From Burkholderia sp. BCC0322 (lineage in GTDB: Bacteria; Pseudomonadota; Gammaproteobacteria; Burkholderiales; Burkholderiaceae), in the NCBI RefSeq assembly GCF_902833045.1, contig NZ_CADFDU010000002.1:744001-808000 (forward strand): a DNA stretch of 64,000 nt, given 5' to 3'. Both the position numbers and the translations under genes were made by a program. This document shows, in pieces, positions 23,399-51,663 of this stretch. Under the pieces are notes generated by a model. The model worked only from the letters and a program-made list of their open reading frames with translations, was not told the origin of the DNA and did not search any database. Each line of letters starts with the position of its first letter. The stretch's first letter is position 1.

Positions 23399-23483
23399 TT
23401 CGTGGTTTCGTGGTTTGCTTGCGGTTTTCGTGAAGTGCCTGTGATCGTGTCGGTCTATTAGCGTCGCCCCTGCGCGGGGCGGC

Positions 23484-23519
23484 GGTTACTTTTCTTTGTC
23501 TTGCCAAAGAAAAGTAACC
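23484..23519. terminator. Terminator-like hairpin in the left arm
   Basis: GGTTACTTTTCTTTG and CAAAGAAAAGTAACC form a 15-bp perfect stem around a 6-nt loop. It lies 86 bp past the argR stop and could end the aot-argR transcript, although it lacks a long T tract after the stem. Confidence 0.5.
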
Positions 23520-24133
23520 AAAAGAAAGGCGCTGTGAAAACGCATGACTTCCCGGTGCCGTGGTCACCAGAGTGGCCCTCGCCTAAGTGTCCGCGCCAGT
23601 CAGGAAGCCGGAGTGGTTCGAGCAATGGTTCCGACACCACTCACCACCCAACCGAGCGGTATACCGCCCGCAAGCTCCGCCCTCGCTTCGCTCGGCCGAC
23701 AGGTACACACCCCCTCAAGCAGCACAATCGGAATATCACCCCAAACCCGATACGTGCGCGGTCCTCGCCTCTCGCCGCAGAAAAAGAGGGACGTACTCAC
23801 CAACACGGAAACACTCGCCCTCATAGCGCAGTTGAGCAGCGATAACAGGCAACCGGCCCGGTCGCACGAGTGATGTGAATGGTCAGAATATCGGACCCGG
23901 CGTGCTGCGCGGGCGGAAGCACATGAGTGCCAGCCACGCGACTGAGGCACCTTGCAGCCGAGCGAAGCGAGGATGGAGCTTGCGGGCGGTATACCGCTCC
24001 GTTGGGTGGCGAGTGGTGTCGGAACCATTGCTCGAACCACTCCGGCTTCCTGACTGGCGCGGACACTTAGGCGAGGGCCACTCTGGTGACCATGGCACCG
24101 GGAAGTCATGCGTTTTCACAGCGCCTTTCTTTT

Positions 24134-24169
24134 GGTTACTTTTCTTTGGCAAGACAAAGAAAAGTAACC
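24134..24169. terminator. Mirror hairpin in the right arm
   Basis: This is the exact reverse-complement copy of the 36-base hairpin in the left arm. A transcript crossing both arms could instead fold into one 287-bp duplex. Confidence 0.5.
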
Positions 24170-24333
24170 GCCGCCCCGCGCAGGGGCGACGCTAATAGAC
24201 CGATACGATCACAGGCACTTCACGAAAACCGCAAGCAAACCACCCAAAACCCCCCCAAAAAAACGAGACACGAAAACACGCCCCCCCCGCCGGGAGGGCA
24301 AAATAAAGCGACCTATCCGCTTCCGATAGAACC

Positions 24334-46501: not shown

Positions 46502-47872
46502 TTACTGGGCCGCGGGGGCCGCTGCCTGCGACGCGCCGTGCTTGTGTCCGCCGCGATGGCCGCCGGCATCCGATGCGCCCGACGCCGCGCCGGCGCCGCG
46601 CGCGCCCGACGCGCCTTTCGGCTTGTCGGCCGGGATCGAGATCTTCGCGCCCTCGCGCAGGCGGTCGGAGCCGTCGGTCACCACGCGCTCGCCGAGCGAG
46701 ACGCCGCTGACGATGCTCGTGCGCTCGCCGTCGACCGGGCCGATCGTGACCTTGCGCACCGTCACCGTGTTGTCGGGTTTCACGACGTAGACGAACTGGC
46801 CGATCGAGCCGGTCAGCACCGCGGACGTCGGCACGATCGTCGCGTTGCGCAGCACGTCGACGAGCAGGCGCGTGTTCACGAACTGATTCGGAAACAGCAT
46901 GCCTTCCTTGTTGTCGAAGTTCGCGCGCAGCTTGACCGTGCCCGTGCTCGTGTCGATCTGGTTGTCGAGCGTCGCGAGCGAGCCCGTCTCGAGCGGCACC
47001 GTGTTGTTGCGGTTGTACGCGGTGACCGACAGCTTCTGGCCTGCGTTCACCTGCTTGAGGATCTGCGGCAGGTTGTCTTCCGACGTCGTGAAGATCACGC
47101 TCATCGGCTGCAATTGCGTGATCACGACGATGCCGTTGCTGTCGCCCGGCGTCACGTAGTTGCCGGGGTCGACCTGGCGCAGGCCGACGCGGCCCGACAC
47201 CGGCGCGGTGATGCGCGCATACGTGAGGTTCAGCTTCGCGGAATCGATCGCGGCCTGGTCGGTCTTCACCGCGCCTTCGTACTGCTTGACGAGTGACGCC
47301 TGCGTATCGACGGTCTGCGACGCGATCGAGTCCTGCGACAGCAGCGTCTGGTAGCGCTTCAGGTCGAGGCGGGCCGTCGCGAGCAGTGCCGCGTCGCGCG
47401 CATGCGTGCCTTCGGCGTTCTCGAGCGCCACCTGATACGGGCGCGGGTCGATCTGAGCGAGCACGTCGCCCTTCTTGACGATCTGGCCTTCCTGGAACGA
47501 GACCGACTGCAGGTAGCCCGACAACTGCGTCTTGACCGTCACGTTCGCGAGCGGCGTGACGGTGCCGAGCGCGGACAACACGATCGGCATTTCGCCCTGC
47601 GTCACGGTCGCGACCTGCACGGGCTGCGCAATGTTCGCCATCGCGGCGGGGCCGCCGCGGCCGCGGTGGCCGCCGGCACCACCGGCCGCGCTTGCGCCCG
47701 CGCCGCTCGCCGCCGTGCCGGCCGCCGGCGTGCGGTTCCACGGATGCCACCAGAGCAGGCCGCCGATGACGACGACCGCGAGCGCCCCGGCCATCAGCGT
47801 GCCGCGCGGGCGCCGCGCGGCGGGGGACGCGGGGTCTTTCGAAGGAGGCGTGGGTTTTTGTTCGTTATCCAT
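46502..47872 (-). CDS. mdtA: RND efflux periplasmic fusion protein (MdtA type)
   Basis: A 456-residue membrane-fusion protein. A membrane anchor lies at about 25-42 (GTLMAGALAVVVIGGLLWW), followed by a Gly/Ala-rich linker. Then come the barrel-sandwich and lipoyl halves (VTVKTQLSGYLQSVSFQEGQIVKKGDVLAQIDPRPYQ, YARITAPVSGRVGLRQVDPGNYV), with the coiled-coil hairpin between them. The tail is rich in Gly, Ala and His. There is no lipobox; it is anchored by the N-terminal helix. It is the first gene of the operon. No outer-membrane factor gene is nearby, so TolC or an OprM-like channel must come from elsewhere. Confidence 0.9.
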   Translation of the reverse strand: MDNEQKPTPPSKDPASPAARRPRGTLMAGALAVVVIGGLLWWHPWNRTPAAGTAASGAGASAAGGAGGHRGRGGPAAMANIAQPVQVATVTQGEMPIVLSALGTVTPLANVTVKTQLSGYLQSVSFQEGQIVKKGDVLAQIDPRPYQVALENAEGTHARDAALLATARLDLKRYQTLLSQDSIASQTVDTQASLVKQYEGAVKTDQAAIDSAKLNLTYARITAPVSGRVGLRQVDPGNYVTPGDSNGIVVITQLQPMSVIFTTSEDNLPQILKQVNAGQKLSVTAYNRNNTVPLETGSLATLDNQIDTSTGTVKLRANFDNKEGMLFPNQFVNTRLLVDVLRNATIVPTSAVLTGSIGQFVYVVKPDNTVTVRKVTIGPVDGERTSIVSGVSLGERVVTDGSDRLREGAKISIPADKPKGASGARGAGAASGASDAGGHRGGHKHGASQAAAPAAQ

Positions 47873-48125: not shown

Positions 48126-48950
48126 TTACACGCTGATGCGCCGGGCCGGCGCGCCGCCGATTTCGCGGGTGATTTTCGCGATGCATTCGTGCAGCGCGGG
48201 CACCACGTGTTCATGCAGCCATTCGGGCGGGCACTGGTGCGACGCGCCACCGCAATTCACCGAATAGCGCTGGCCCGACGGGCCGACGAAACCGGCCGCG
48301 ACGGCATTCAGGCCCTCGCGCCATTCGCCGATCGCGATCGCGTGGCCGTCGCGCATCGCGTCGTCCAGTGCGGGGTTCAGGCGGGCGGACACATGCGGCC
48401 AGTCGTCGCCTGCCGTGGTGCGCAGCGACTCGAGCAGCAGGCGGCGTTCGTCGTCCTCGAGTGCGGCGAGATACGCGCGGCCTACCGCGGTGCGCGCGAT
48501 GTCCATCCGCGAGCCGATTTCGAGGCGCGTGACGAGCACGGCCGAGCGTGGCCGGATCACGTCGATCGCGACCATGTCGAGCCGGTCGCGCACCGCGAGG
48601 TGCACGGACAGCGACGTGCGTTCGGCCGGCTCGATCATGAACGGCCGCGAACGCGCGCGGATGTCGAAGTTGCGCAGGAAGCCGTGGCTCAGTTCGAGGA
48701 CCGATGCAGTGAGCACGAAGCGCTCGCTGTCGGGCAACTGGAACAGGAAGCCGGCGCTGACGAGCGTCGCGGTGATGCGCGAGACGGTCGGCTTCGGGAT
48801 GCCGGTCAGTTCGGTCAGCTCGCGGTTGCTGACGGGCGCATCGGCCGCCGCGATGCGACGCAGGACGGCAAGGCCGCGGGCGAGGGCGGTGATCTCGTCG
48901 GGCGAGGATTCACGGTCCCGCGACGCGGGAGGGGTTACAGTTGTCGACAC
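48126..48950 (-). CDS. IclR-family transcriptional regulator
   Basis: A 274-residue regulator. The winged helix-turn-helix at about 20-85 reads LARGLAVLRRIAAADAPVSNRELTELTGIPKPTVSRITATLVSAGFL. The IclR effector domain at about 90-262 has MDIARTAVGRAYLAAL and AAGFVGPSGQRYSVNCGG. The start is GTG 48950. The product may control the efflux genes 253 bp downstream in the same direction, or metabolic genes elsewhere; there is no catabolic operon next to it. The upstream region holds a 9-bp inverted repeat (GGGTGAACC/GGTTCACCC at 49031-49070) that could be its own operator. Confidence 0.88.
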   Translation of the reverse strand: MSTTVTPPASRDRESSPDEITALARGLAVLRRIAAADAPVSNRELTELTGIPKPTVSRITATLVSAGFLFQLPDSERFVLTASVLELSHGFLRNFDIRARSRPFMIEPAERTSLSVHLAVRDRLDMVAIDVIRPRSAVLVTRLEIGSRMDIARTAVGRAYLAALEDDERRLLLESLRTTAGDDWPHVSARLNPALDDAMRDGHAIAIGEWREGLNAVAAGFVGPSGQRYSVNCGGASHQCPPEWLHEHVVPALHECIAKITREIGGAPARRISV

Positions 48951-49030
48951 GAGGGATTCTCTCTAATTCCGAAACTCGATTTCAATTTTGTTGGTATTGT
49001 AGGACTATTGTCAAAGGATGCATATTCCGA

Positions 49031-49070
49031 GGGTGAACCGTTCATGGGATGAGATTTTACGGGTTCACCC
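49031..49070. promoter_or_regulatory. Inverted repeat upstream of iclR-type gene
   Basis: GGGTGAACC at 49031-49039 and GGTTCACCC at 49062-49070 are perfect 9-bp arms separated by 22 bases, 81 bp ahead of the regulator start. It may be an operator or a leader hairpin. Confidence 0.4.
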
Positions 49071-49136
49071 TTGGTTTATTAGGAAAACGCTCAAATGAGT
49101 GTTGCCAGAAAGTGCATGAACCGGTGCAAATACCGC

Positions 49137-49165
49137 TTGACTTGTCGGGCGGAAACGGAAAGAAT
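49137..49165 (+). promoter_or_regulatory. Candidate sigma-70 promoter for a small RNA
   Basis: TTGACT (49137-49142) and AAGAAT (49160-49165) are separated by 17 bases, the ideal spacing. The matches to consensus are 5 of 6 and 4 of 6. Transcription would start near 49171, directly before a stable hairpin. Confidence 0.5.
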
Positions 49166-49170
49166 GTCTC

Positions 49171-49268
49171 ACGTTTTCGAAACATCGTTTCAAGAGTTTA
49201 ACCGGCGACGATGTTTCGCGCAGTCTCTCAGGTTCTAGCACGGCCCTCGGAATGGCTAGAACTTTTTT
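49171..49268 (+). ncRNA. Candidate small RNA, about 100 nt
   Basis: No reading frame of coding character lies here on the forward strand. The predicted transcript begins with a perfect 11-bp stem, CGAAACATCGT (49178-49188) with ACGATGTTTCG (49208-49218), around a 19-nt loop. A single-stranded segment follows, then a terminator stem GTTCTAGC (49232-49239)/GCTAGAAC (49255-49262) and six T. Together with the promoter-like pair just upstream, this is the classic layout of an independent sRNA. I do not recognise it as 6S, tmRNA or a known riboswitch. Targets are unknown. Confidence 0.55.
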
Positions 49269-49269
49269 A

Positions 49270-49298
49270 GCGCCACGGTCTCCGTGGCGCTTTTTTTT
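49270..49298 (+). terminator. Second, stronger rho-independent terminator in tandem
   Basis: GCGCCACGG/CCGTGGCGC (9 bp, 3-nt loop) is followed by eight T, directly after the sRNA terminator. Two forward terminators in a row with no upstream gene on that strand argue for a strong, otherwise unannotated transcript. Confidence 0.85.
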
Positions 49299-49421
49299 GC
49301 CCGTCTTTCCGCTCGTCCGCCCGGACGCGTCAGGCCCGTATTATCCCCCGATCGTCGAAACCCCCTGTTTGAACGCAGGCGGGGGCTGTTTGCGCGCGCG
49401 CCTTGCGTGATTCGCATGCAC

Positions 49422-49455
49422 AAAAAAAGCGCGATGCCCGCACGGGGCATCGCGC
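49422..49455 (-). terminator. Rho-independent terminator of the phoX gene
   Basis: On the reverse strand, GCGCGATGCCC/GGGCATCGCGC (11 bp, 5-nt loop) is followed by seven T, about 90 bp after the phoX stop. Confidence 0.88.
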
Positions 49456-49542
49456 ATCAAACGGCGTGGAGCGCCGACGAATGAACGGTGATGAAGAAAG
49501 GGCGGGCCCGGCCGGGAGGCAGGCCCTCCTCGCGTGGCCCGG

Positions 49543-51504
49543 TCAGGCCTTCGCGAGCTTGATGCCGGTCTGCTCGGCCGTCAGGTAGCCGACGCTGGCA
49601 CCGAAGCGGTCCTTGAAGTTCGCGCGCACGAGCGGATCGAGCGTCGGCTTGACCTTGTCGTGCAGCGGCGATTCCCAGTCGCCCGCGTGCTGGAAGTTGC
49701 TCATGATGTACGTCCAGCCGTTGATCTCGTCGACCGCGTGCAGGCCCGTCGATTCGGCGCCGGCCGGGCACGACAGCACGCGTACCAGCGACTTCGTGTC
49801 GACGTTGTAGGCCCACAGGAAGTTGTTCACGTGCATGCCGGAGTCTTCGCCGATGAAGAGCGTGCGCAGCTTTTCGGAGAACTTCAGGTTGTCGGGGTTC
49901 GCGATCTTGTCCGGGTTCGCGAGGTTGCCGAGCCCGTCGGCCGCGGCGAGATCCTCGCCGACGAGCGCGGCCGGCGCGCCCATGTCGACCGGCACCCATT
50001 CGCTGTCGATCGCGCTGCCCGTCGTGTCGCGCTGGCCGCCCTTCAGGTTCAGCGCGTAGACGGCGCCCGCGGCGATCTTCTTGTCGACCGCGACGTCGCG
50101 CGACACCGCGTTGCCCTTGACCATCGACGTCTCGATCCGCGACATCGCCGTGTAGACGATCTTGTCCTTCGCGTTCACGGTCGTGCCTTCGAGCTTCGTG
50201 AACGCCATGCTGCCGCCGAGCAGCGCCGCGTAGCGGTGCGTCTCGAGGAACGCGGCCGCCTTTTCCATCCCCGGCTTCACGCGCATCCAGTTGAACTTGC
50301 CGCCGAAGTGGATCTTCGTGTAGCTCGCGTCGTTCGGGTCGGTGGTCGTCAGGTCCATGATGTCCGACGCCTTCAGCGTGTTCGCGAGTGCTTCGATCTC
50401 GCTGCTCGTCGCGTGGCCGATCCGGATCCACGTCAGCGTCGCGGTGCCCGCGCCGGCGGACGACGTCTGCGTCCACTTCGCGACGTAAAGCGTGCCGGCC
50501 GACAGGTCGGCCGCCTTGTCGGCGACGAACATGAACAGGCCGCCGTTGGTTGCGTCGTCACCCATCATCACGGTGCGCTGGTCCGGCATCACCTGGATCA
50601 GCTCGTGCGAGATGCGGCCCAGGCAGTAGTGCTTCTTCACGGTGCCGGTGCCGTCCGGATTCACGGTGATCTCGGGCAGGTGGCCGTAGTGGTAGGGGTT
50701 CGCCTTCGTCTCGTCGCCGAACGTGTTCTTGCTGAACGCCTTGAACTGCGCGTCGGTCGCGGCCTTCGTCGCGTCCGGCTCGTACTCCTCGCTCGACAGG
50801 TGCGTGCCCCACGGCGACAGGCTCGCGCCGCACGTGATCCACAGGCCGTGCGCCTTCGACGTGTCGACGTTGTGGTACTTGACGACCTTCAGCGCGCCGG
50901 TGGCGGGATCCTGGTCGAGCGTGAGCACCGCGATCGGCGACGGCAACTGGCCGTACTGCGATGCGCTGGCCTGGTCGCGCGTCGTGTATTCGAACTGCAC
51001 GACCGCGAACACCGTGTTGCCCTTCACACCGGGCACGTTCGCATTCTTCAGCGTGAGCAGCGAACTGCCGTCCGGGCAGTCGGAATAGAACTGGCGCTCC
51101 TTGCCGGCTACCGAGCGATCGATGATCGGCTGGTTGTTGATGTCGTAGTAGCCGCCCGCGAGCGTCGTGCCGCCCTTGCCGTCCGGCACCAGGTCGCCGG
51201 TCACGAAGAACGGCCGGTACGCGAGCTTGAAGTTGCGCGACGAGCCGTCCGAGAACGACACCGACAGCGTCGAGCCGACCGTCGTCGTGGCCATCGCGGC
51301 CGCGTTGTCGAGCGTGGGGGCGGCCATCGCCGAGAACGTCGCCGACGTGTACGCGGCGGCGACCGGGGCCGGCGTCGACGCAGGATCGTCGCCGCCGCAA
51401 CCCGTCAGCAGGGCCGGCAGCGCGAGGCCGGAAAGGGGAAGCATCGGCGCGCCGGCGAGGATCTTCAGGGCCTGACGACGGGAAGCATTGGGCAACGCGG
51501 GCAT
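49543..51504 (-). CDS. phoX: PhoX-family (DUF839) exported alkaline phosphatase
   Basis: A 653-residue beta-propeller phosphatase, expected to release phosphate from organic monoesters in the periplasm using calcium and iron. The N-terminus has a Tat-like SRRQALKIL motif, then a hydrophobic run and a lipobox-like LLTGC near residue 36, so it may be a Tat-exported lipoprotein. The PhoX body includes LSSEEYEPDATK, YHYGHLPEITVNPDGTGTVKKHYCLGR, RTVMMGDDATNGGLFMFVADK and FIGEDSGMHVNNFLWAYN, where acidic and Cys ligands are conserved. ATG 51504 exposes the signal. No Pho box could be confirmed by eye. It shares an intergenic space with amt. Confidence 0.85.
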   Translation of the reverse strand: MPALPNASRRQALKILAGAPMLPLSGLALPALLTGCGGDDPASTPAPVAAAYTSATFSAMAAPTLDNAAAMATTTVGSTLSVSFSDGSSRNFKLAYRPFFVTGDLVPDGKGGTTLAGGYYDINNQPIIDRSVAGKERQFYSDCPDGSSLLTLKNANVPGVKGNTVFAVVQFEYTTRDQASASQYGQLPSPIAVLTLDQDPATGALKVVKYHNVDTSKAHGLWITCGASLSPWGTHLSSEEYEPDATKAATDAQFKAFSKNTFGDETKANPYHYGHLPEITVNPDGTGTVKKHYCLGRISHELIQVMPDQRTVMMGDDATNGGLFMFVADKAADLSAGTLYVAKWTQTSSAGAGTATLTWIRIGHATSSEIEALANTLKASDIMDLTTTDPNDASYTKIHFGGKFNWMRVKPGMEKAAAFLETHRYAALLGGSMAFTKLEGTTVNAKDKIVYTAMSRIETSMVKGNAVSRDVAVDKKIAAGAVYALNLKGGQRDTTGSAIDSEWVPVDMGAPAALVGEDLAAADGLGNLANPDKIANPDNLKFSEKLRTLFIGEDSGMHVNNFLWAYNVDTKSLVRVLSCPAGAESTGLHAVDEINGWTYIMSNFQHAGDWESPLHDKVKPTLDPLVRANFKDRFGASVGYLTAEQTGIKLAKA

Positions 51505-51663
51505 GTGGAGTCCAGTTTCAGTTGTTGGAAGAATGGCCTTCGCGAAGCAGGCGACTGACAAGCTCCGCGAAGGCAAATTGAAAACTGGACGGAAGTGTAG
51601 GGGTGCTAGATGAAAGTTTTTTGAATTGAAAACGTAATGACGTGCCGGGCGTGCGCCAGGCGC

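Follow-up and report, generated by a model that had tools for sequence, protein, structure and literature searches.

The element on the forward strand between the iclR and phoX genes of Burkholderia sp. BCC0322 is, judged from its sequence, the chromosomal gene of an already known small RNA (sRNA), ncS54. Considered as a whole, the locus is probably best explained as an ncS54 gene that is controlled by the adjacent IclR-family regulator, encodes a base-pairing sRNA, and has additional copies elsewhere that are independent of IclR. The earlier note on this DNA, which proposed a candidate sRNA here, is confirmed in its observation and partly supported in its interpretation.

Identity and layout of the sRNA gene

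An Rfam search of the whole window (the entire 64,000-nucleotide stretch analyzed), as suggested in the earlier note, matched RF02871 (ncS54, “Burkholderia sRNA 54”) at 49221 to 49298 on the forward strand with 110.5 bits, compared with a gathering cut-off of 43. In the sections of Sass et al. (2017; PMC5688073) that deal with it, ncS54 is a 128-nt transcript from chromosome 1 of B. cenocepacia J2315 with its own start site, an MFE of −48.0 and a z score of −4.3, and its detection as more than one Northern band is put down to an alternative start. The stretch from 49171 to 49298 is also 128 nt long, lies behind a TTGACT-17-AAGAAT pair, ends in T8, and has an MFE of −48.6 (z, −4.34; none of 500 dinucleotide shuffles was as low); folding of its 5′ part alone (49171 to 49220) is weak (z, −1.69; 31 of 500 shuffles). 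Given this length and the near-identical folding statistics, a 5′ end at 49171, as first proposed, fits the published ncS54, provided that the 3′ end is at 49298. Judged by the full-length model match, equal length, and similar folding statistics, the two are the same gene. The model match and the published transcript thus bear out the prediction that an sRNA is made here from a promoter of its own.

Features of the locus (window coordinates, strand) are as follows.
46502..47872, minus: MdtA/MuxA-type RND efflux adaptor, the neighbor that is retained when iclR is lost
48126..48950, minus: IclR-family regulator (Pfam HTH_IclR and IclR_C above cut-off)
48971..48983, no strand: predicted operator O1 at the iclR promoter, GAAACTCGATTTC, one base past the iclR −10
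48985..49014, minus: iclR promoter TTGACA-18-CAAAAT (promoter scan)
49137..49165, plus: ncS54 promoter TTGACT-17-AAGAAT (sequence and promoter scan)
49171..49298, plus: ncS54 sRNA, 128 nt (length and folding statistics as for the J2315 transcript; 3′ end at the last T of T8)
49179..49191, no strand: palindromic predicted operator O2, GAAACATCGTTTC, +9 to +21 of ncS54
49205..49217, no strand: second, weaker operator-like copy, GCGACGATGTTTC (identical to GAAACGATGTTTC at 11 of 13 positions)
49221..49298, plus: RF02871 match (full model, positions 1 to 79)
49221..49229, plus: tail CAGUCUCUC, unpaired in the MFE structure, probable pairing region
49230..49264, plus: core hairpin SL2, with loop ACGGCCCUCGGAAUG at 49240 to 49254 (covariation)
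49263..49268, plus: U6 separating the two hairpins, possibly an Hfq site (function suggested by the sequence)
49269..49298, plus: intrinsic terminator SL3 with U8 (terminator scan, inverted repeat)
49429..49455, minus: terminator-like hairpin of the PhoX gene (terminator scan)
49543..51576, minus: PhoX-family gene (PF05787, family match), convergent neighbor

Both neighbors, iclR and phoX, are on the minus strand, and the promoter pair is at 49137 to 49165, both as first described. Across the 801 bp scanned, promoter-like sites exceeded expectation (3 found, 0.3 expected), while terminator-like sites were not above chance (2 found, 1.3 expected), and the first stem-loop was not listed by the scan. 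Among 31 aligned Burkholderia sequences, the window included, there is a steep increase in conservation at 49220 and a steep drop after 49298; 49220 to 49298 is almost invariant and the promoter highly conserved, but the flanks are not. In other genera, 25 of 26 main loci have TTGACN-17-NANAAT ahead of the core, the exception (L104) having TTGACN-17-GAAGAT. For the IclR-family protein, the best NCBIfam model was that of PcaR/PcaU/PobR (TIGR02431), at 110 bits, below its cut-off of 284.75.

Related sRNA families were not recovered. Double-hairpin RNA (RF02278) gave no match in the window, nor at an E value of up to 1 within 48900 to 49500, and ncS25 (RF02869) and mmgR/suhB (RF00519), which share the hairpin-plus-terminator layout of ncS54, scored 24.2 and 19.5 bits, below their cut-offs of 46 and 41. 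The double-hairpin RNAs ncS03, ncS05, ncS27, and ncS62, as described in the parts of the literature consulted, resemble ncS54 in having two hairpins, CU-rich unpaired stretches, and several copies per genome; ncS54 differs in its single invariant loop hairpin, variable terminator, and plasmid copies. Elsewhere in the window, a 295-nt inverted repeat (23410 to 23704 and 23949 to 24243; 97% complementary) overlaps both matches to RF02421 (Bp1_684 “sRNA”), one on each strand; because of this overlap, what RF02421 marks may be a repeat element instead of, or in addition to, an sRNA gene.

The conserved core of the RNA

On comparative grounds, the functional part of ncS54 is the last ∼78 nt, comprising a UCUCUC tail, a covarying hairpin with a constant GCCCUCGGA loop, U6, and a terminator with U8. 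The stem of SL2 has compensatory changes in 8 of 10 pairs, is far above slid versions, and was matched by none of 500 shuffles. Tail UCUC is invariant in all 30 aligned cores, as are loop bases GCCC.CGGA, the latter partly by selection, since the core finder required a CCC[TC]CGG loop and a UCUCAG-like tail; loop invariance is therefore weaker evidence than stem covariation. The alignment held 30 of 45 distinct core strings, leaving out seven main-copy variants that differ only in their starting or trailing bases and loci L054, L062, L110, L114, L116, L118, L132, and L135. Odd loops occur in L110, L114, L116, and L118, the last three retaining only CCCUCGGA, and more diverged copies (e.g., L045, L046, L048, L051, and L059 to L061) lie outside both the core finder and the second-copy counts. 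An ATG in the SL2 loop is absent from other cores, and a small peptide was rejected.

Two tandem terminators had been proposed, and both stem-loops, with their T6 and T8 tracts, are present. The first, however, does not hold as a terminator: the comparisons indicate that it is a conserved functional hairpin with compensated pairs, and that the second (stem-loop 49269 to 49291, its T8 reaching 49298) is a terminator free to change in sequence. Of 95 distinct tails, 90 continue past the core into a hairpin and U tract of varying sequence (26% of shuffles), with 35 different 5′ arms. The 3′ end would accordingly be at the second U tract, 49298, instead of near 49268, and the RNA 128 nt rather than about 100 nt long. 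The unpaired conserved region and terminal U tract are the features of an Hfq-dependent base-pairing sRNA, to which class ncS54 may belong.

The 5′ inverted repeat as a predicted operator

Upstream of the core, 49178 to 49188 and 49208 to 49218 form a perfect 11-bp inverted repeat, the left arm of which is a palindrome, GRAAYNNNRTTYC, that is also present at the adjacent iclR promoter. Most of the stem consists of this palindrome, O2, and the weaker copy GCGACGATGTTTC. We consider 49178 to 49218 better read as operator DNA, a predicted site for the adjacent IclR-family regulator, than as the structured RNA body that the repeat had been taken for. That it is a functional RNA stem is quite unlikely: the repeat is perfect in the window, its pairing exceeds that of slid versions (88% versus at most 53% of cells), and one compensated pair occurs in three sequences, but this is the only one of 11 pairs changed on both sides, and 120 of 500 shuffles were as well paired. 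The covariation proposed as a check thus gave no support for the stem as an RNA structure. Moreover, the distance from the −10 to the core ranges from ∼60 to ∼270 nt between loci, with differing sequence, and the left arm forms by itself a palindrome of the type found at the iclR promoter. In other genera, the palindrome, where present, directly follows TTGACN-17-NANAAT, and the leader that continues to the core differs between loci in both length and sequence (the leader alignment held 22 of 25 distinct leaders, the other three being alike in the aligned stretch).

IclR-family operators, such as the KdgR box, are palindromes of GAAAC-type half-sites adjoining the −10/+1 region, and the site predicted here resembles them in both half-site and position. 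The pattern GAAAYNNNRTTTC occurs in the 64 kb only at O1 and O2 (0.08 sites expected). Genome-wide it was found 33, 17, 13, and 29 times in G001, G028, G141, and G107 (reversed pattern, 4, 1, 3, and 3 times); because the palindrome is not unique, other proteins may use similar sites, and IclR-type sites of other regulators probably exist in the genome. A promoter followed by the operator occurs once in G001, at the ncS54 locus. A separate inverted repeat, GGGTGAACC...GGGTTCACCC, lies upstream of the iclR promoter (49022 to 49079) and is found with three or fewer mismatches in 44 of 144 loci.

Probable control of ncS54 by the adjacent regulator

The operator is retained near the sRNA promoter where iclR is retained, which argues that IclR probably controls ncS54 through the predicted site. 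It was present in 42 of 43 Burkholderia loci (shuffled expectation, 0.42; the miss, L025, has one mismatch), in 22 of 23 loci of other genera with iclR (expectation, 0.17; the miss is L098), and in none of three without iclR (expectation, 0.03). In a named set of 80 loci (of at least 120 stretches; species overlap with the other-genus set, namely Paraburkholderia ginsengisoli, Caballeronia concitans, and Trinickia terrae), an operator lies within 230 nt in 63 of 66 loci with iclR and in none of six without intact iclR; eight were untestable. Two of the three misses (L163 and L194) have an operator at −273, and the third (L207) has one mismatch. A scripted pattern found the promoter in five of the six loci without intact iclR, and the sixth (Mycetohabitans, L224) has TTGACT-17-GAAGAT. 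Only fragments of iclR are left in L157 and L213; L157, L160, and L213 retain relatives of the operator that differ at one position, and there are few loci without intact iclR.

On a tree of the efflux adaptor (MFP) covering 56 of the 80 loci, the presence of iclR requires four changes. Fifty rows have iclR and the operator (L163 and L194 being scored by hand as operator bearing because of the site at −273), five have neither, and one has iclR only; all five iclR-less rows lack the operator. Trinickia symbiotica and two Paraburkholderia lineages are nested within iclR-bearing groups, and Mycetohabitans, on a long branch, is placed uncertainly. The loss of regulator and operator in parallel lends good comparative support to control of ncS54 by the adjacent IclR. 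A palindrome common to the regulator gene and a target promoter, kept only with the regulator, is the pattern of an IclR-controlled promoter, with L098 and L207 as exceptions.

From the position of the site next to the −10/+1 region, we infer that the action of IclR on ncS54 would be repression. The published rise in ncS54 in J2315, just 3.1-fold in biofilms and 2.0-fold on starvation in the sections of PMC5688073 concerned, does not by itself point to strong repression. The discussion in that study states that what controls sRNA accumulation is unknown, and its ncS54 sections contain no IclR operator, plasmid copies, or validated target. A literature search combining IclR, sRNA, operator, Burkholderia, and divergent transcription found no paper.

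Conservation and spread

Absence of conservation outside the strain, which the earlier note, with regard to the stem, held would speak against the candidate, was not seen for the sRNA as a whole: ncS54 scored over the cut-off in all 65 genomes of the genus Burkholderia. A 44-nt core model also found all 65 (16 with two or more copies) and all 58 genomes of a second genus, taken as Paraburkholderia (33 with two or more copies, up to nine). In samples with stricter filters, 5 of the 399 genomes taken across the order matched the core model, as did 4 of the 398 taken across the phylum; the Rfam model was matched in 83 of 200 genomes and 6 of 25 genera of the family at E values of up to 1e-5. One of the five matches over the order is in another family (G433), a lone core-like match of 41.8 bits outside the Burkholderia clade (L141, ∼1500 to 1550).

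The core, with its UCUCUC tail and GCCCUCGGA loop, recurs in the extra copies. At E values of up to 1, it was found in 26 plasmid records (14 Burkholderia, nine Paraburkholderia, two Pseudomonas, and one Caballeronia). Of these records, 20 were fetched and examined, and 17 of the 20 loci exceed the Rfam ncS54 cut-off, including one from Pseudomonas aeruginosa; L068, L133, and L136 fall below. Plasmid and genome counts overlap in at least NZ_CP020740.1, which is also the second-copy contig of G022, and second copies on one plasmid type are related rather than independent. The plasmid backbones are of integrase/Lar/DUF1173, MOBP traJ, and MOBF types, and the neighbors of chromosomal extra copies are diverse. 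Phage carriage was rejected: there were five phage records at E values of up to 10 and two at up to 1, all partial matches, and an exact pattern had no match in viral_contigs.

The operator is absent from all 42 distinct second copies. In 20 of the 42, the best −10-like hexamer ends 8 to 10 nt before CTCAGG, and in 14 there is no such hexamer; 17% of the upstream regions reach at least 8 of 12, compared with 4% of shuffles. Because of the hexamer at this spacing, at least part of the second copies would start their RNA at the core (UCUCUCAGG), and transcription of plasmid copies may likewise be expected from the −10-like hexamers. The extra copies look like sRNA copies freed from IclR, and those on chromosomes and plasmids are most likely IclR-independent mimics with the same partners.

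Several copies have distinctive surroundings. An ncS54-like core on a P. aeruginosa plasmid (NZ_CP077972.1; L062, 4001 to 4043) lies near traJ/icmT genes, a layout like that on Burkholderia vietnamiensis pBVIE04 and Paraburkholderia pEMT1 and pBN4. A Paraburkholderia second copy (L118, 3004 to 4562) is ∼300 bp from a convergent porin gene, with which a link is possible. The surroundings of a further ncS54-like copy (NZ_LR699556.1; L069, 2329 to 3445) contain fragments of group II introns and a HEARO RNA accompanied by an iscB gene.

Proposed mode of action and alternatives

We propose the following. A conserved sigma-70-type promoter would drive the 128-nt RNA, and the divergent IclR-family regulator would bind a palindrome just past the ncS54 −10, like the one at its own promoter, and so control both ncS54 and iclR, most simply by repression. 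On leaving the DNA, perhaps in response to an aromatic effector (as kinship with PcaR/PobR may indicate), IclR would allow ncS54 to be made. The RNA, probably with Hfq, would then use its CU-rich tail and its C-rich loop to pair with distant mRNAs at their purine-rich ribosome-binding sites, and the extra copies, which keep tail, loop, and terminator but not the operator, would act as mimics on the same partners. Pairing with the starts of the neighboring genes iclR, mdtA-like, and phoX, placed by tblastn, gave null results for the tail (mean z, −0.38, −0.31, and −0.08, respectively) and the loop (−0.20, 0.12, and −0.77) in 66, 44, and 8 loci. As a conserved target, GAGAG(A) before iclR was rejected: all 43 Burkholderia loci have it (as GAGAGA in 40), but none of the 23 loci of other genera does.

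Instead of base pairing, ncS54 might titrate a protein such as CsrA through its loop GGA, which is invariant in the 30 aligned cores, and multicopy plasmid occurrence would suit a decoy. Known CsrA sponges, however, have several GGA motifs each, in hairpin loops, whereas the 128 nt from 49171 to 49298 contain one, and the invariant part is wider than GGA; we therefore regard titration as improbable. The plasmid and second copies, for their part, are unlikely to be unrelated terminators or decayed relics without function, even though their terminators differ, their contexts are diverse, and a third of the 42 are without a candidate −10, since most of the plasmid loci (17 of 20) pass the ncS54 cut-off, stem changes are compensated, and tail and loop are kept. 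That the element has no regulatory RNA function and is just a terminator, or an insulator separating convergent from divergent genes, is barely credible. The hairpin with U8 is terminator-like and terminator counts are near chance, but the unpaired bases are invariant, the stem covaries, many genomes have more than one copy, and the ncS54 sections of PMC5688073 report that the transcript starts at a site of its own and mention Northern bands for it. A pairing sRNA with IclR-independent copies thus remains the reading that we prefer.

We further advance, tentatively, that ncS54 may be the chromosomal founder of a dispersed family of RNA regulators, whose 78-nt core would have been taken up repeatedly without the operator and would set the ncS54 regulon of the host from a plasmid; this covers conjugative and other plasmids, additional chromosomal sites within the Burkholderia clade, and plasmids in P. 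aeruginosa. Plasmid-encoded sRNAs (e.g., those of pNDM-HK; PMC5880898) are comparable as sRNA genes on plasmids; the present copies differ in being homologues of a host core sRNA without its operator. Among the matches listed on plasmid-borne or mimic sRNAs in Burkholderia (with subscription literature outside the search), titles and abstracts do not contain ncS54 copies.

Implications

The comparison narrows the functional RNA to one tail and one loop, and the adjacent IclR, which does not appear in the ncS54 sections of PMC5688073, is a directly testable regulator. As a caution, what looks like an RNA stem in an inverted repeat close to a start site may instead be operator DNA. Plasmids carry the ncS54 core without the operator; if the founder reading is true, this would be control of the host from the plasmid at the RNA level by a copied host sRNA, bypassing the host's own regulator.
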